The translations under genes were made by a program, and so were the position numbers. A DNA stretch of 29,308 nucleotides from a virus: positions 1 through 29,308 of IMG/VR virus record IMGVR_UViG_3300037245_001036; one strand, 5' to 3'. The notes below the pieces were generated by a model. The model did no database searches and was not told the DNA's origin. It saw only the letters and a list, made by a program, of their open reading frames with translations. Of the stretch, positions 7,278-29,308 are shown piece after piece. How positions within the stretch are numbered: position 1 is the stretch's first letter; each line of letters begins with the position of its first letter.

Positions 7278-7314
7278 AAAAAATAAGGGAAGGCATTACA
7301 CCCTCCCTATTTTA
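7278..7314 (-). terminator. Hairpin terminator after the major capsid gene
   Basis: Read on the minus strand, an AATAGGGAGG arm, a short loop and a CCTTCCCTTATT arm form a stem with two small bulges. A run of six T (7283-7278) follows at once. It lies 19 bases past the capsid stop codon. Because the other side is also T-rich (TATTTTAT), it may work weakly in both directions. It would reduce transcription of the neck and tail genes relative to the capsid gene. Confidence 0.8.
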
Positions 7315-15475: not shown

Positions 15476-15504
15476 TTGCTATTAATATAACTCTATGATA
15501 TAAT
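15476..15504 (+). promoter_or_regulatory. Early promoter (extended -10)
   Basis: TTGCTA at 15476-15481, a 17-base spacer, then TATAAT at 15499-15504 preceded by TGA (extended -10). The transcription start would be near 15511, giving a very short leader before the Xre gene. The -35 elements of the divergent promoters are 36 bases apart, so one bound regulator could affect both. Confidence 0.85.
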
Positions 15505-15528
15505 TAACTATAGAAAGCAGGTGATTTG

Positions 15529-15735
15529 TTGTATAAGCTAGAAGGACTAAAGGTAATTTTAAAGCAAAGAAGTATGACACAAAAGAAGTTAGCAACATTA
15601 GTAGGTGTTTCATATCAGACTATATCTAACTATCATACAGGATTCAGAGAACCATCATTCAAGAATATAGTAAAGATTACTCAAATATTAGATTGCTCAT
15701 ATGATTATTTAATCACTGGTATTAATAATATATGA
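15529..15735 (+). CDS. Xre/cI-type helix-turn-helix regulator (68 aa)
   Basis: This is a small DNA-binding protein made of little more than an HTH-3 domain. It has LKVILKQRSMTQKKLATLVG, then VSYQTISNYHTGFREPSFKN, then a closing helix ending CSYDYLITG. The recognition helix is SYQTISNYHTG. Two TTG codons in a row (15526, 15529) can serve as start. AGGTGA at 15519-15524 is too close to the first, so the second is chosen. It is the first gene after the early promoter and likely controls the divergent promoter pair. It has no C-terminal self-cleavage domain, so RecA-dependent induction of the lambda type is not expected. Confidence 0.85.
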   Translation: MYKLEGLKVILKQRSMTQKKLATLVGVSYQTISNYHTGFREPSFKNIVKITQILDCSYDYLITGINNI

Positions 15736-15860
15736 AAAAAAAACACGAATTAGTGGTGTACGATAAAAAATCATTAATAAAAGTTGTTGTCTGGTCATTA
15801 ATTACTATTGCATTACTATATATATGTGTGTTATACTATTATTGTATCAAAGGTGTTTAG
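15732..15860 (+). CDS. Single-TM micropeptide (42 aa)
   Basis: The ATG overlaps the Xre stop as ATGA, a classic coupling junction, so it is probably translated with the regulator. It starts MKKKHELVVYDKK, followed by a hydrophobic helix at residues ~15-38 (VVVWSLITIALLYICVLYYY) and a short tail KGV. The positive N-terminus predicts an N-in orientation. No function is known. The paired membrane peptide and regulator are reminiscent of small phage exclusion or host-takeover peptides, but nothing specific can be said. Confidence 0.7.
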   Translation: MKKKHELVVYDKKSLIKVVVWSLITIALLYICVLYYYCIKGV

Positions 15861-15904
15861 TAGCACCCTTATAAATCCAACATCATTATTATATTAATAA
15901 ATCG

Positions 15905-15993
15905 TGTCTGGTTTATTTAATTAAGGGAGTTGTAATCTTTCATTGTTGGAGGAGATTATAACCTACTAAACCCTTAGTTAAGTGAATCAGGCA
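15905..15993 (+). ncRNA. Long structured RNA hairpin in the early leader region (89 nt)
   Basis: The outer arms 15905-15927 and 15971-15993 pair over all 23 positions, with 18 Watson-Crick pairs and 5 G-U wobbles. An inner stem, 15929-15940 with 15951-15962, adds 12 pairs (9 Watson-Crick, 3 G-U) around a 10-base loop. The junction between the stems is 1 base on the left and 8 on the right. All eight wobbles are G-U only when the plus strand is transcribed; on the minus strand they would be A-C mismatches. The loop and inner 3' arm hold GGAGGAG (15948-15954), a strong ribosome-site sequence with no ATG, GTG or TTG start after it. The 3' arm is followed by TTTTTATATTTT, so the element could also end or attenuate transcription. 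No known family is recognised. Confidence 0.75.
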
Positions 15994-16025
15994 TTTTTAT
16001 ATTTTAAATAAGAAAGAAGGATATT

Positions 16026-16157
16026 ATGGAAACTTTAAAAGATGTAATGGATCAAGTATTAATAAGTATTAAAAAGAAAATGATTGAATATGATGCACTG
16101 TATATAAAAGCTCATATAGAAAATGACAGAATCAATGGTGAAACGTATATGCTATAA
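16026..16157 (+). CDS. Hypothetical small early protein (43 aa)
   Basis: An ATG with a good ribosome site (AGAAGGA, six bases before) opens a 43-aa frame, METLKDVMDQVLISIKKKMI and onward, ending ETYMLx with TAA at 16155-16157. The sequence is amphipathic and probably two helices. It lies between the structured RNA and the origin-like region, in line with the early genes. No family is recognised. Confidence 0.6.
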   Translation: METLKDVMDQVLISIKKKMIEYDALYIKAHIENDRINGETYML

Positions 16158-16193
16158 GGTGCTAAATTAGGGTAGTTTATTCCCCCAAAAAAG

Positions 16194-16232
16194 TGGACCA
16201 CCCTAATGGACCACCCATACGGTCCACCCCTA
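16194..16232 (+). repeat. Iteron array 1 (three 13-bp units)
   Basis: Units start at 16194 (TGGACCACCCTAA), 16207 (TGGACCACCCATA) and 16220 (CGGTCCACCCCTA), in exact 13-base phase. The second and third also form an inverted pair, TGGACC and GGTCCA. Together with flanking bases, 16192-16215 matches 16284-16307 with one mismatch in 24. Confidence 0.88.
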
Positions 16233-16285
16233 ACAACTAATTAACGTGATACCTAAGCAATTAATAAAGGTACAATAAATAATAG

Positions 16286-16324
16286 TGGACCACCCTAATG
16301 AACCACCATATTGGACCGTATTAC
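16286..16324 (+). repeat. Iteron array 2 (three 13-bp units)
   Basis: Units start at 16286 (TGGACCACCCTAA), 16299 (TGAACCACCATAT) and 16312 (TGGACCGTATTAC), again in exact 13-base phase. The units decay in similarity towards the initiator gene. Confidence 0.85.
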
Positions 16325-16404: not shown

Positions 16405-17088
16405 ATGAATGAAGGATTTATTTCTATACACAGAAAAATAGAGGAGAATCGAATACTAAAAGGTAGTCTATTCAAATTAGGTATATGGAATCATTTATTA
16501 CTTAACGCTACCCATCAGACATACAAGACCAAACAATATGGATTTACTATAGAGCGTGGTCAACTGATAACTAGTAAACGTATCATAGGAGCCAAGTATA
16601 ATGAAGCTCCTAGCAAGGTATATAGGTTTCTAACTCAATTAGTCAAAGCTAAGATGATAACAATGGAAACTATAACTACTAAACTAGGTACTATATCATT
16701 AGTGACAATATGTAAATACGATACATTCCAAACACAGAATGGTATTACTGAATCTAAGTCACCTAATAATCAATACAAAAATATAATCGATTACTTGAAT
16801 GAAAAGATAGGTACTAACTATAAACATACTACTGATGAAACTAAAAGACTTATCAATGCAAGATATAATGATGGTTTCACTTATGATGATTTTATCAAAG
16901 CAATAGATAATGCTCATAATCATTGGAAGGATCAATTCAATGGACTAAAGAATATGAAACCAAAGACATTGTTTAATGGAAGTTTTGAAGGTAGAAGCAA
17001 TGGTACAGCTTATAATTGGGAAAATACAGATACACCATCACCTAAGAAAAGAATTATTAAAAATGAATTTATAGACAATAGAGAATAA
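16405..17088 (+). CDS. Phage replisome organiser / initiator (227 aa)
   Basis: The N-terminal domain (1-~110) is a winged helix of the phage replisome-organiser type, with FISIHRKIEENRILKGS, the diagnostic RGQLITSKR at 51-59, and a recognition helix around SKVYRFLTQLVKAKMI. The C-terminal part (~126-195) matches the Phg_2220_C pattern, IIDYLNEKIGTNYK, then FTYDDFIKAIDNAHNHW and LKNMKPKTLF. Such proteins bind the origin and load the helicase. It is encoded directly beside the iterons, which are its most likely binding sites, and 20 bases before the helicase gene. The C-terminal ~30 residues are polar and may contact the helicase. Confidence 0.88.
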   Translation: MNEGFISIHRKIEENRILKGSLFKLGIWNHLLLNATHQTYKTKQYGFTIERGQLITSKRIIGAKYNEAPSKVYRFLTQLVKAKMITMETITTKLGTISLVTICKYDTFQTQNGITESKSPNNQYKNIIDYLNEKIGTNYKHTTDETKRLINARYNDGFTYDDFIKAIDNAHNHWKDQFNGLKNMKPKTLFNGSFEGRSNGTAYNWENTDTPSPKKRIIKNEFIDNRE

Positions 17089-17107: not shown

Positions 17108-18532
17108 ATGGATAACAATTTAATGGAATTAGCAAATGAAAGTATTAATAATAAAGATTTTACAGTAAATAGGTTATATGAAATAGGTATGGATGAATGG
17201 AAAGCACCAAAGTATGAAATGGAAAGAAACGTATTAGCATTTATATTAAGTTCTTATAATAATTATGGTATCAACAAGTGTCAATACATATTAGAACCTA
17301 CTGACTTCTTATGTTTTAAGCATAAACAGATGTACACATTTATGTTATACCTACACAAATTAAATAAAAAATTAGATACAAGTACACTAGCTGAAGCATA
17401 CAGAGATAATAAATTAGAATCTGAAGCTGATATGTTGTACTGGATGGAATTAACATCATCAATACCAACTATAGAGCACGCTAATGAATACATCAAAGCA
17501 GTTAAAGATATTAGTTGTAAGCTAACATTAAAGAATGAATGTATAAGAATCAATAATAATGATTCAATTACCTTAGAGGACAAATTAGAGGGTATTCAAA
17601 GGTTATTACGTGACCTACCTATAGTTAGTAATACCAAGTTAGAAAGTTTATATAAATCTAAACTACCTGAAGCAAATGATAATTTGATAAATGGTAAAGA
17701 AAAGGTAGACTATTTAATAACTCAATTCAAAGCATTAGATAAAGTATCAAAATTGACAAATGGATCATTGACAGTAATAGCTGCTGATACAGGAGCAGGG
17801 AAGTCAGCACTAGCACAAGGATTAGCAGGTAAATTTGTATTAGAAGGTAAACAGGTATATTTCAATACTTGTGAAATGATTGATGATGAACTAATAGAAA
17901 GAGCACAGACTAATTTTGGTCAAGTGAATTATAGTAAAATAATCAATGGTACTTGTACACCTGAAGAAGCAAAGAAAATAAAACAAAAAACCCAAATATT
18001 GATAGATGATAAAGCAGGAGATATATATACATCATTTGAAAAGGATATAGATAGACTAATAGCAAATGTAACAAAAGCATATAGACTAGGTAAAGTAGAT
18101 GTGTTAATAGTAGATTACATTCAACTGATGAAGTCCAGATTACAGCCTACAGACACTAGAAAAGCAATTACAGTAATAACAAGCTCATTAAAAGCATTAG
18201 CCTTAGAACTGAATATACCAGTTATAGCATTATCACAGTTTAGTAGAGCATCAAAAGATGCTAAGAAACGTGCACCAAGATTATCAGACCTTAAAGAGAG
18301 TTCATCAATAGAGCAGGATGCTGACAATGTATGGTTATTATTCGTACTAACAGAGGAAAGCACTATTACTGAATCAGGTGGTCACGAAACAGTCCAATTA
18401 GAAGTAGCTAAAGCTAGGAGAGGTCAGAAGTGTAGAGTACATTTAAGATTTATACCTTCTAATATGTATTTCCAAGAGGATGGAAACGGTGTCACATATC
18501 CAAAAGATTATAATGAAACTAGAGGAGAATAG
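17108..18532 (+). CDS. dnaB: Replicative DNA helicase, DnaB family (474 aa)
   Basis: This is the ring helicase that unwinds DNA at the fork. The N-terminal domain (35-~140) begins YEMERNVLAFILSS and holds EPTDFLCFKHKQMYTFM. The linker is at ~150-190, and the RecA-type C-domain runs from ~195. Walker A is ADTGAGKSA (226-234) with K232, the catalytic glutamate is E256 in NTCEM, and Walker B is LIVDYIQLM (333-341). SQFSR (376-380) and DLKESSSIEQDAD (394-406) complete the family signature. The first Gly of the usual Walker A is replaced by Ala. No primase domain is fused and none is encoded elsewhere, so host DnaG is presumably used. The ribosome site is AAGGAGAA. Confidence 0.95.
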   Translation: MDNNLMELANESINNKDFTVNRLYEIGMDEWKAPKYEMERNVLAFILSSYNNYGINKCQYILEPTDFLCFKHKQMYTFMLYLHKLNKKLDTSTLAEAYRDNKLESEADMLYWMELTSSIPTIEHANEYIKAVKDISCKLTLKNECIRINNNDSITLEDKLEGIQRLLRDLPIVSNTKLESLYKSKLPEANDNLINGKEKVDYLITQFKALDKVSKLTNGSLTVIAADTGAGKSALAQGLAGKFVLEGKQVYFNTCEMIDDELIERAQTNFGQVNYSKIINGTCTPEEAKKIKQKTQILIDDKAGDIYTSFEKDIDRLIANVTKAYRLGKVDVLIVDYIQLMKSRLQPTDTRKAITVITSSLKALALELNIPVIALSQFSRASKDAKKRAPRLSDLKESSSIEQDADNVWLLFVLTEESTITESGGHETVQLEVAKARRGQKCRVHLRFIPSNMYFQEDGNGVTYPKDYNETRGE

Positions 18533-18533
18533 A

Positions 18534-19268
18534 ATGATGAATGAAATTATAAATAAAGATTGCTATATTGGAATTAAAAGTATAGATATATCATCAGATG
18601 ATTACATTATAGTTACAGACCCACCTTTTAATATTAATTATAAATATAATACTTATAAAGATAATTTATTAGAAGAAGAATTTTATAATAAGTTAGCAAA
18701 TTTGATTAGAAACAAAATGGCAGTAATTATAATGTACCCTGAAATGTTACATAAGTTATCAGTCTATTTAGGTTATGCACCATTACGTGTTGTAAGTTGG
18801 GTATATAATTCAAATGTTTCTAAAGAGCATAGAGATATTGCATTTTATAATATAAAGCCTGATTTTAGCAAAGTTAAGCAGCCATATCAAGACCCTAAAG
18901 ACAAAAGAATTGCAAAGCTAATAGCTAATGGTAGTCTAGGTACTAATATATATGATTGGTGGCATATAAGCCAAGTAAAAAATATAAACCCAGATAAATA
19001 TAATCACCCTTGCCAAATGCCCTTACAAGTTATGAAAAATATCATAGAGTTGTTGCCTAGTGATAAAATAATAATTGATACATTTTCAGGGACAGGGACA
19101 ACATTACTAGCAGCTAAGGAATTAGATAGAAATTATATAGGATTTGAAATAGATAAAGATTATTATAAAATATGTAAAGATAGATTGAACTATATAACAC
19201 CAAATAACCAAACAAGTATATTTACTGATTTTAATAAAATAGAGGAGAAAACTAATGGGAAATATTAA
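18534..19268 (+). CDS. DNA adenine/cytosine-N4 methyltransferase, beta class (244 aa)
   Basis: This is an amino-methyltransferase using S-adenosylmethionine. The catalytic motif IV DPPF is at residues 29-32, followed by the target region, and the SAM-binding motif I FSGTGTT is at 184-190. The catalytic motif before the SAM motif marks the beta class. IGFEIDKDYYKI after motif I is the usual motif II region. An upstream in-frame ATG (18480) would overlap the helicase by 53 bases. AGAGGAGAA before the double ATG at 18534/18537 favours the shorter form. No restriction enzyme is encoded, so it most likely protects phage DNA from a host nuclease or marks the origin. The target sequence cannot be predicted. 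Confidence 0.9.
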   Translation: MMNEIINKDCYIGIKSIDISSDDYIIVTDPPFNINYKYNTYKDNLLEEEFYNKLANLIRNKMAVIIMYPEMLHKLSVYLGYAPLRVVSWVYNSNVSKEHRDIAFYNIKPDFSKVKQPYQDPKDKRIAKLIANGSLGTNIYDWWHISQVKNINPDKYNHPCQMPLQVMKNIIELLPSDKIIIDTFSGTGTTLLAAKELDRNYIGFEIDKDYYKICKDRLNYITPNNQTSIFTDFNKIEEKTNGKY

Positions 19269-19644
19269 TTTTAATACAGAGCAAAAAATATTGGGATGTA
19301 TCTTGGTGATGGAAAATCAAGGCATCCTGGAATGTATCAAGCGTGGAATCACTACAGATGATTTTAATGACATACACCACCAGAAATTATTTAAGGTTAT
19401 GAAATGGTTAGATGATAAAAAAGAATTAGTGACTTTTGAAAACATAGCTAATTTATATAAGAAACACAATAAAGAAACTGATAGAGATTTATGTATTGAT
19501 CTTGAATATTGGTTAGATATAGTTGACTTGATACCTAGTAGAAAATTCCTTAATAGTTATATAGAAGAATTTATTATGACTAACAATAATATAGCTGATT
19601 ATAATTTCGTGGTACAAAATAGTAACAAGTCCTTGACTTTATAA
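19255..19644 (+). CDS. Stand-alone DnaB N-terminal-domain protein (129 aa)
   Basis: The protein aligns by eye with the N-terminal domain of the helicase encoded at 17108. EQKILGCILVMENQ matches the EMERNVLAFILSS start, TTDDFNDIHHQKLFKVMKWL matches PTDFLCFKHKQMYTFMLYL, and EYWLDIVDLIPSRKFLNSYI matches LYWMELTSSIPTIEHANEYI. It ends there, with no ATPase domain. In bacteria this domain forms the ring collar and binds primase. A free copy could recruit host DnaG, regulate ring assembly, or poison host DnaB. It overlaps the methyltransferase gene by 14 bases and has an AGAGGAGAA ribosome site. No remnant of an ATPase domain is seen downstream, so it does not look like a recently broken helicase. 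Confidence 0.78.
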   Translation: MGNINFNTEQKILGCILVMENQGILECIKRGITTDDFNDIHHQKLFKVMKWLDDKKELVTFENIANLYKKHNKETDRDLCIDLEYWLDIVDLIPSRKFLNSYIEEFIMTNNNIADYNFVVQNSNKSLTL

Positions 19645-20329: not shown

Positions 20330-20570
20330 AGTAGTTGATGGTCTTACAATGACAGACCTTGATCCAGAATTACACGAATTAGAATTATATGATGGAAGTG
20401 TATTAGGTTTAGAATACCAAAACAATATACTATGTAGGTCAGATGGGATGCCAATGTTTGTCTATGATGAATCACTAAACTTGAAACCATTATTAGACCA
20501 TCCTAGTCCAGGTGAGAGAGCTCACGGATTCAATATTATAATAGAAATTAGAGAGAGGTTACAACTATGA
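20316..20570 (+). CDS. Hypothetical early protein (84 aa)
   Basis: No family is recognised. The protein is acidic in its first half (MTDLDPELHELELYDGSVLG) and carries DHPSPGERAHGFNIIIEIR near the end. The start overlaps the preceding gene, with AAAGGAA as ribosome site, and the stop overlaps the HNH gene start, so all three are tightly coupled. Confidence 0.6.
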   Translation: MKYYKVVDGLTMTDLDPELHELELYDGSVLGLEYQNNILCRSDGMPMFVYDESLNLKPLLDHPSPGERAHGFNIIIEIRERLQL

Positions 20571-21127
20571 AAAATTATGAAAATTTATGTACTACAGATT
20601 TACAAAATGAGATATGGAAAGATATTAAAGATTTTGAAGGGTTATATCAAGCAAGTAATAAAGGTAGAATAAAAAGCCTACCTAAAATCAGAAGAAAAGG
20701 TAGAAGCAACGAAACTATAATTATGAAGCAAAGAAAATCACCTAGAGGATATTTAAGGGTCAACTTATCATCAGAGAATGTTAAAACGGACTTTAGGGTA
20801 CATAATTTAGTCTTAGCAGCGTTTTCACCGAATCCAGATAATAAACCTTGTTGCAATCACGATAATGGTGTTAAAACTGATAATGAGAGTAGCAATCTTT
20901 ATTGGGTAACATATAGTGAAAATACCATACACGCTATAGAAACTGGTCTAATGCCTATAAGATTTGCAAATGGTCCTAATGCTAAATTAGATTGGGTCAA
21001 AGTAGGAATATTAAGAAGTTTAAAAGATAAATTATCTAAAAAAGAAATAGCTACAATATTTGATATCACATTAGGTCAGGTATATCGAATATTAAATAAC
21101 AAAAGATGGGTAGTGGAAAATGAATAA
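20567..21127 (+). CDS. NUMOD4-HNH homing endonuclease (186 aa)
   Basis: Residues 15-38 (EIWKDIKDFEGLYQASNKGR and on to SLP) are a NUMOD4 motif. Residues 60-125 are an HNH nuclease fold, with GYLRVNL, H79 in RVHNLVLAAFSPNP, then CCNHDNG (95-101) with H98, and SNLYWVTYSENTIHA. Residues ~150-180 (LSKKEIATIFDITLGQVYRI) are a C-terminal HTH for site recognition. Domain order and length are typical of free-standing phage homing endonucleases. These cut genomes lacking the gene and so spread by repair. No intron is apparent around it. Its start overlaps the upstream stop and its end overlaps the next start. Confidence 0.92.
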   Translation: MKNYENLCTTDLQNEIWKDIKDFEGLYQASNKGRIKSLPKIRRKGRSNETIIMKQRKSPRGYLRVNLSSENVKTDFRVHNLVLAAFSPNPDNKPCCNHDNGVKTDNESSNLYWVTYSENTIHAIETGLMPIRFANGPNAKLDWVKVGILRSLKDKLSKKEIATIFDITLGQVYRILNNKRWVVENE

Positions 21128-28400: not shown

Positions 28401-29308
28401 TTTTTCTCACTAGTCTTTTGATATCCTACTATGTCACCATTTCCATCTAAACCTTGATATCCATTAGGTTGGTCTTTATTAGCTATCTTTTCTACTACGC
28501 TATCTTGTGCATAAAATGAAGGTAATTCACCATCTAATTTTTCTGAATCATCTATAACACCACTATCAGTAATATCATATGCTGATTTTAATGCTAAATC
28601 ATCTAAAGTTATAGGTGATTCTTCACTGTCCCCAGATAGATTTATTGTAGCAACTTTTCCACCTGTAGGATTTGTAACCCTAGCCTGTTTGTTTTGTAAT
28701 TCATCTTCTATTGCTAATTTATAAACAGTATATGAAGTAACTGGATCACCCATTATACTACCTGTAATAACTGTGATATCTGATGTGTTTCTTTTTGCAT
28801 ATGTTGCTACACCTAGTTGCTCATTAGCAGCTATAGTGAAAGTACCAGCTATTATCTGGTCATCTAGTCCTAATGATAAATCTGCATTATTTATTATATT
28901 TATTGCTGGTCCTGATGATAATGTTCTAAGTATGCTCCCATCAATAGCTGAAGCTACTACAAAATCTTGTCTAACTTGACCTGCTCCACCTGTTTTTCTA
29001 CCAAAGAATTTAGTAGTAAAATTGAAGTCAGTGAAATCACCTAGATATGCTCCTAGAGGTTCTACTGCTAAAAATGCTAATTCAAATTCTCCCACTACTT
29101 CTTGCCATCCTAAACCTACTGCATCACCATATGATACTTCTACTGCTACCTGTTCATATCCTAAACTAGTAGTGGTTGGTACTCTAGTACCCCAAGCTAT
29201 CCCTGACACTGGGTCTATAAGTCCTGATGGTTTATTTGTAGGGAATGAATTTGTAGGTGTTAAAATCGCAACTTCATTAATCAATGTAGATGCTGATACA
29301 CTCCTAGA
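25430..29308 (-). CDS. Large tail fibre / receptor-binding protein, main part (continues at 127-937 across the join)
   Basis: The frame is open to the window edge and joins the piece at 1-937 to give 1562 aa. A start at the TTG at 29284 would be an artefact. The middle has long beta-rich stretches and fibre hallmarks (PNGYQGLDGNGDIVGYQK, FTTNDEQITLDADETG). From residue ~1342 the order DAATKNYVDTGIADLVNGAP, LDTLNELAAAMGDDENH, HVTAVTGNPHNLDPNDVG is the conserved phage-fibre shaft module. The last ~90 residues are a beta-rich C-terminal head (TITITGPLTTSDDGN). Function is inferred from these modules and from position next to the hub gene. The stop is 30 bases before propeller gene B. Confidence 0.9.
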   Translation of the reverse strand, partial: SRSVSASTLINEVAILTPTNSFPTNKPSGLIDPVSGIAWGTRVPTTTSLGYEQVAVEVSYGDAVGLGWQEVVGEFELAFLAVEPLGAYLGDFTDFNFTTKFFGRKTGGAGQVRQDFVVASAIDGSILRTLSSGPAINIINNADLSLGLDDQIIAGTFTIAANEQLGVATYAKRNTSDITVITGSIMGDPVTSYTVYKLAIEDELQNKQARVTNPTGGKVATINLSGDSEESPITLDDLALKSAYDITDSGVIDDSEKLDGELPSFYAQDSVVEKIANKDQPNGYQGLDGNGDIVGYQKTSEKNQNDGYVGKNSDGGVTLQGSSTINNPTFTGTITKVDTTEFTTNDEQITLDADETGVPDSNKKSGVRINRGTEDDYLFVFEELTQLFKVGKEGSLVRVAAIEDSPTDLGFAQYDAVSKTLKTVTDIVQFLTTPTTDGAFVVFDLASGKLIEKATLSTFDLTDMPSSFPAGSEGEILTVNDTNDGYTHEVANNNTSTAVVNGLLLSQGIGETFDISPGIYTIVDYTNPNKPKTNRIEYAGSVNNTLLNIASSDLTYVSVDINMNVVQRATEPNGAQRRSDSFIGIVGHLDRVTVTQVISSPIVNNQPINTIKDLFPGVFINKGISFSGLVGLAQFQYTSGDMRGFGINADFDETNPNVLDFSLTSPTQFTEVWRDGAGGINTEVNVTFDPDLYDNASGIRQLIPGPNNATNHHIYVGINKEIFVIRGQILYATLAAAATNAELGLDILEGIPDSILDNAVLRSIASIDKTATDFDNISEAVFYQPTIALVSGGGVSGSVDDANVNITSASPPELAGKGTQKMANEFIVNSLNDKKKLTMVNTTNADFYTTTAVALALNTIHTITFNVNASVQNVRISLDGQSTFYDLVTVSGANIIGIEVSGFTVDVVWDGSKFIDYIAKLDLIGGKITNPKTTTEPTVIINNEINATGKLLEGRYQDSIKWSFDINGVLRANSFKDIDNEAFFINPASTSTALKMQGDIDIANKKITGSGLLHPDGRGLEYDTVNGVWIVDDSSSLLFGYHPGEVALKAFKKINMSGLPIIGLQEPSNPQDAATKNYVDTGIADLVNGAPGVLDTLNELAAAMGDDENHVTTMTNLIATKEPINANIQAHVTAVTGNPHNLDPNDVGAEPANANIQTHIPDDTKHRIINDGGSSTTQLLSSSKINTELGLKATKTAINILLPQTIAMPTSGWGLVGDFFERTITITGPLTTSDDGNIKPIITTSAILTAWQTMAVVGAERVSNTQIKIKAVAANATAFNFEFVITKDNASL
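29182..29308. repeat. Terminal direct repeat (right copy): circular-contig overlap
   Basis: Exact copy of bases 1-127. It should be counted once in the circular genome. Confidence 0.93.

Follow-up and report, generated by a model that had tools for sequence, protein, structure and literature searches.

The early region of an uncharacterised bacterial virus contains an 89-base hairpin (15905-15993) that is not a product of chance and points to RNA. It probably belongs to one RNA family with a hairpin of the pink-berry phage MD08, judging from shared sequence, covarying structure and a like place in the genome. A second fold of the same transcript stretch suggests a terminator/antiterminator attenuator of the replication operon, acting in cis in the early transcript and perhaps coupled to translation, a model put forward tentatively at somewhat less than an even chance.

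Genome and early block

The window, that is the whole stretch of DNA analyzed, is record IMGVR_UViG_3300037245_001036 with 29,308 bases. Its ends are identical over exactly 127 bases (1-127 = 29182-29308) and therefore the contig is a complete phage genome, assembled across its ends and circularly closed or permuted. The minus strand carries the structural genes, including those for the portal, terminase, and major head protein, the last of which is directly followed at its 3' side by an ordinary minus-strand terminator (7287-7307; GGGAGGGTGTAATGCCTTCCC-TTATTTTTT). The plus-strand early block starts at 15526 with a Cro/CI-type regulator, followed by a 42-aa ORF and then by the element and a 43-aa ORF; behind these lie the genes for the replisome organizer (SPP1 gp38-like), the DnaB helicase, a methyltransferase, and an HNH endonuclease. 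A further 129-aa protein (19255-19644) resembles the N-terminal part of DnaB (PHROG 19, E 5e-7) and is separate from the full DnaB at 17108-18532. The features of the block surrounding the element were:

15476 to 15504, plus strand: candidate early promoter TTGCTA-17-TATAAT with TG before the -10, a consensus match only
15526 to 15735, plus strand: 69-aa Cro/CI-type helix-turn-helix (HTH) protein, the first early gene (Pfam HTH_3, E 2e-13; PHROG transcriptional regulators)
15732 to 15860, plus strand: 42-aa ORF, candidate leader peptide with one hydrophobic stretch (sequence and translation)
16026 to 16157, plus strand: 43-aa ORF 3' of the element with its own AAGGA ribosome site
16405 to 17088, plus strand: SPP1 gp38-like replisome organizer, the first replication gene behind the element
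17108 to 18532, plus strand: DnaB-like replicative helicase

The 42-aa ORF begins at an ATG that shares bases with the TGA stop of the HTH gene (ATGA), and a Tyr-Tyr-Tyr-Cys run (Tyr codons 15834-15842) ends five codons ahead of its TAG stop. No protein family in Pfam or PHROG matched this ORF, and protein searches found no relatives of the 43-aa ORF. The candidate promoter has 10 of 12 consensus matches and was the best plus-strand site in the intergenic region. A plus-strand scan at a threshold of at least 9/12 identified no site between the hairpin and 16557. Directly upstream of the hairpin, no promoter-like site of its own was found. Because of the missing downstream site, the replication genes probably depend on read-through past the hairpin, a point for which promoter scans are weak evidence. 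Just upstream of the replisome organizer, a GC-rich island (16189-16320) holds direct and inverted copies of TGGACCACCC that may represent iterons of an origin, operators, or a leftward transcription terminator, and near these repeats positions 16129-16238 form a strong minus-strand fold (-38 kcal/mol) ending in TTTTTT.

Long hairpin and its probable homologue in MD08

The long hairpin, designated fold T, consists of the following parts:

15904 to 15927, plus strand: 5' arm, common to both folds
15929 to 15962, plus strand: inner stem-loop P3, present in both folds and containing GGAGGAG at 15948-15954
15963 to 15970, plus strand: 8-nt bulge CTACTAAA, exact complement of 15856-15863
15971 to 15994, plus strand: 3' arm
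15994 to 16005, plus strand: U-rich tail TTTTTATATTTT, terminator-like, directly after the stem

An initial annotation, made from the sequence alone, had described an outer stem of 23 bp with five G-U pairs and no mismatch, an inner stem of 12 bp with three G-U pairs, and a T-rich stretch behind them. The outer stem was recovered as described, with 23 contiguous pairs (15905-15927/15971-15993) and a possible 24th G-U pair at 15904/15994, as was the T-rich stretch, which places five U directly at the stem base. The inner stem (15929-15942/15947-15962) has the three G-U pairs but is slightly longer than proposed, consisting of 11 pairs, a 2-nt bulge, and three more pairs. The minimum free energy of 15895-16010 was -42.1 kcal/mol compared to -18.3 ± 3.3 kcal/mol in 200 dinucleotide shuffles (z -7.1; none of the 200 as low), and the hairpin was the lowest plus-strand 110-nt fold in the whole genome. 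In 1.44 Mb of viral sequence, mostly gathered for unrelated reasons, just one other unbroken stem of at least 23 bp with at least three G-C pairs was found; the hairpin is the second-longest unbroken stem with that G-C content and, among the long stems, the only one with several wobbles and a T-run directly behind. The claim that the element was previously unrecognised agrees with Rfam 15, which gave no match in the 29,308-base window at the gathering threshold and nothing relevant around the element when relaxed to E up to 10.

The eight wobbles had been read as compatible with plus-strand RNA only and as arguing for an RNA role over a DNA dyad. This reading is borne out by the z-score, by the covarying candidate homologue described below, and by the energies of the 89 bases, which fold at -38.5 kcal/mol on the plus strand and at -13.9 kcal/mol as the reverse complement, where each wobble turns into A-C. 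A DNA-level dyad such as an operator, an origin structure, or the remnant of an inserted element would suit the nearby replisome organizer and GC-rich repeats; however, the eight wobbles pair in plus-strand RNA alone with no other mismatch, the minus strand folds weakly, the element is single copy, and three G-U pairs are identical in the window and MD08, leaving such a dyad extremely improbable.

A search of relatives with a covariance model, together with compensating base changes in the stems, had been suggested as a check of the element. The model R1, built from the single sequence of this hairpin, gave a full-length match to MD08 (OP947164.1, 8098-7999, minus strand; unannotated) with 40.2 bits and a rough E-value of ~6e-8 to 1e-7 in its genome, the one strong match among the records searched. 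The same MD08 hairpin had been found earlier without the model as the strongest fold and hairpin of that genome, a place that a genome scan with sequence alone would have missed. Among named phages, MD08 is the best-covered portal relative (29%) and also has a DnaB relative (28%); its host is not identified (PMC10370329).

A purely sequence-based MAFFT alignment preserved 21 of the 24 outer pairs, with seven changed on both sides and three on one side, compared to 0-3 double changes when the partner was shifted by 1-3 columns; these counts come from two sequences, and two hairpins aligned together always look covarying. Identical bases occupied 27 of 48 stem positions, reached in 23 of 100,000 pair-order shuffles, and 9 of 11 positions of the U-rich tail. 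The next ATG follows the hairpin after 32 and 33 nt in the two phages, and the alignment score from the hairpin through the U-rich tail to this ATG was above all of 3000 shuffles. As in the window, the MD08 hairpin belongs to the early operon and precedes the replisome organizer gene. From these two sequences, the hairpins are likely to be homologous.

Differences from the window include two 1-nt bulges in the MD08 hairpin compared to an unbroken outer stem, an inner stem that is not conserved pair by pair (70% of cells and no double changes in the aligned register), and the neighboring genes, which are RusA-like upstream and an HNH endonuclease downstream. The HNH gene occupies the place of the 43-aa ORF, and the earlier suggestion of an RNA partner for that micropeptide finds no support. 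The gene directly behind the MD08 hairpin (L168 7468-7971) is a 39% relative of the window HNH gene (20567-21127), which lies elsewhere in the early block, and it appears that hairpin and HNH genes have not travelled together. A leader hairpin of an HNH homing endonuclease was also considered and rejected, as 10 other HNH-type loci had neither a comparable hairpin nor an R2 match.

Further relatives were sought by several routes. DNA pattern searches for the 5' arm, the bulge plus its complement, the junction, and the inner 3' strand plus bulge gave no hits or unrelated ones. Searches with the replisome organizer and HTH proteins identified no close relative, the terminase search in genomes no relative, and a portal relative with 39% identity (L033/G001) was without the hairpin; the sole close relative in the collections searched was a 5.6-kb fragment with an identical portal. 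Covariance models applied to ~50 further phage records gave, besides MD08, no match with E better than ~0.02, and plasmids gave no match. Ordinary short terminators were among the weak R1 matches in Brochothrix phages and SPP1. Three viral contigs (L073 407-479, L110 4359-4431, and L159 686-758, minus) share a nearly identical 73-nt hairpin of 18 unbroken pairs and a 37-nt loop (GTGTATGAGTAGTGGCAC..., then ATTGTTGTGTGT) that is unrelated to the 15905-15993 element.

Alternative fold and its predicted role

Folding of the growing transcript revealed a second structure (fold A) that leaves the inner stem unchanged and builds a three-way junction around it, with three bases unpaired. Its 5' strands are:

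15850 to 15863, plus strand: 5' strand of P1a, pairing with 15963-15975 (13 bp, one bulged T) and including the TAG stop 15858-15860
15866 to 15891, plus strand: 5' strand of P2a, pairing with 15895-15927 (24 bp, small bulges)

The 5' strand of P2a and the 3' arm are rival partners for the hairpin 5' arm, and the bulge 15963-15970 serves as 3' strand of P1a. The exact 8-nt complementarity of the bulge to 15856-15863 is the sole such loop-to-downstream match in the genome on both strands; a kissing loop between these segments would involve the same pairing, for which the helix closing fold A is the better explanation. With the 3' end at 15976, fold A was the minimum-energy structure (-36.9 kcal/mol; probability of P1a plus P2a 1.00) and it stayed so until the final 5-8 bases of the 3' arm were made. 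Fold T overtakes between 15985 and 15992, the long hairpin having a probability of 0.99 with the 3' end at 15992 in an equilibrium computation.

Dinucleotide shuffles of the upstream 60 bases gave as stable a minimum free energy in 0 of 8000 cases and as large an interaction gain in 5 of 8000; fold A was matched by 1 of 3701 genomic 60-mers of like GC and, with a 120-nt upstream stretch instead, in 1 of 600, all statistics applied after the pairing had been spotted by eye. P1a and P2a together hold 37 pairs with a single G-U, and the 5' arm therefore forms Watson-Crick pairs with the upstream strand and partly wobble pairs with the 3' arm. The bases at 15907, 15911, and 15916, engaged in wobbles in the long hairpin, form Watson-Crick pairs in fold A, as expected for a strand with two partners. 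The direct path from A to T has a barrier of 17-20 kcal/mol (upper bound). At full length, fold T is ~10.6 kcal/mol more stable than A with Turner 2004 parameters, under which A would thus matter solely as a kinetic trap, and the two are within 1.5 kcal/mol with Andronescu 2007. Computed thermodynamics shows two mutually exclusive folds, their order during RNA synthesis, and an excess over shuffles; in these computations fold A is antiterminator-like in that it sequesters one terminator arm and forms first.

An attenuator of the early operon was one of several roles listed in the initial annotation and fits best, by way of an exclusive fold that had gone unseen there. Polymerase from ~15511 would transcribe the HTH gene, the 42-aa leader ORF, and then the switch, where the leader 3' end (15850-15891) would pair first with the hairpin 5' arm and bulge. 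If fold A forms in time and persists, it would block pairing of the two arms, and polymerase would continue through the 43-aa gene to the replication genes. Should fold A be prevented, the 23-24 bp of fold T would close against the U-rich tail and transcription would presumably stop. A ribosome on the leader stop codon may provide the trigger for fold T by covering the 5' strands of fold A, while a ribosome held further upstream, or none, would favor A. Translation of the leader may be coupled to that of the regulator via the ATGA overlap. In computation, a mask at the stop codon abolished fold A and a mask at the Tyr codons did not. Ribosomes protect ~10 nt past the A site, and >27 nt ahead of the hairpin sufficed for no hindrance in that ribosome study (PMC4824070); with the hairpin 44 nt ahead, a stop-codon ribosome would therefore cover both 5' strands and spare the hairpin. 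The stop codon and masking outcome are, as modeled, the geometry of leader-peptide attenuation.

The GGAGGAG motif is present with no start codon behind it, as first described, although its proposed switching between exposed and buried states does not hold with an inner stem that is the same in both folds. A small RNA titrating the ribosome finds no support, as the motif is half-paired in both folds and no promoter-like site was found directly upstream of the hairpin. Both the shared inner stem and the three unpaired junction bases could suit a translational or ligand/protein switch, with the 43-aa gene or transcription regulated through binding of a protein, either the HTH or one from the host, or of a small molecule at the junction or the inner stem. 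However, the junction is tight without an obvious pocket, pairs of the inner stem are not conserved in MD08, and the downstream AAGGA site lies outside both folds, making such a switch very unlikely.

Several observations count against the attenuator. MD08 has no fold A (gain -0.5, no better than shuffles) and its tail is a poor terminator (score -10.6), and with this one probable homologue lacking fold A, a switch conserved in relatives was not found. Intrinsic terminators do not usually take the form of a two-part hairpin of 89 nt, the Turner energies place T well below A at full length, and the terminator-type score of +8.4, although the highest in the scan of the genome, falls among the top scores obtained by chance in randomised genomes (4.6-10.3). 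This score and the stem followed by the U-rich tail would also agree with a plain intrinsic terminator between early and replication genes, constitutive or factor-controlled, with read-through or antitermination by a phage factor and no part for fold A; in SPP1, the gene 37.3/38 replication operon is immediately preceded by an ordinary terminator, and lambda tR1 is alike in place. The hairpin is nevertheless much larger than such a terminator needs, shuffled genomes score equally, no antitermination factor was recognised, and fold A is left to chance, so that a plain terminator appears distinctly unlikely.

RNase III processing is the main rival since MD08 keeps the hairpin without the alternative fold or a good U-tract. 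Host RNase III would cut the duplex, or the duplex would protect the 5' end of the processed downstream message; the hairpin would then split regulatory from replication genes of one transcript, and fold A would be incidental. The unbroken 23-24 bp amount to the ~two helical turns expected of such a site, and MD08 retains the duplex, its position ahead of the replisome organizer, and the spacing to the next start. If the hairpin is the conserved part, a duplex-only role (RNase III or message protection) is therefore the economical alternative. Set against this are the fold A statistics and the five U at the stem base, which it leaves unexplained, and the RNase III or stabilising role is considered unlikely, if still a serious contender to the attenuator.

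Relation to known systems and significance

The predicted attenuator shares with trp-type leader attenuators of E. coli a short ORF whose stop codon falls within the first antiterminator strand, three segments that exclude one another, and a terminator-like hairpin with a U-rich tail and the operon behind (trp attenuation logic is summarised in PMC13178558). It differs in its location in a phage early operon, a 42-aa hydrophobic leader coupled to a regulator gene, a three-way junction as antiterminator, a much larger terminator, and a putative stalling codon. With lambda tR1/nut and HK022 put it would share the control by early-transcript RNA of read-through toward replication genes. In put, the nascent RNA spans ~70 nt and contains two stem-loops (PMC9378689), compared to one nested hairpin with a bistable partner and no Rfam match in the window, where an N-like gene was not recognised and boxA/boxB were not found by eye. 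The long intergenic duplex in a polycistronic early transcript is also reminiscent of the early RNase III sites of phage T7. The T7 stems are shorter and irregular, and the cut falls at an internal loop, in contrast to the alternative fold and U-rich tail of the window, where RNase III cleavage is putative.

Taken as a whole, the more specific scenario is speculative and rather unlikely: a new phage RNA family, characterized by a long early-operon hairpin covarying between distant phages, that in this virus became a translation-coupled kinetic attenuator timing the replication genes by where the ribosome stands on a leader that encodes a membrane peptide and is translated together with the early regulator. 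If true, RNA folding and ribosome position would gate phage replication genes with no antitermination protein devoted to the task, and control of read-through from early to replication genes would have a third mode in addition to N-type proteins and put-type RNAs, here in a small RNA whose two folds could be tested by a few point changes in a reporter. Even without the switch, a covarying hairpin before the replisome organizer in two distant phages would constitute a new RNA element with no Rfam entry.
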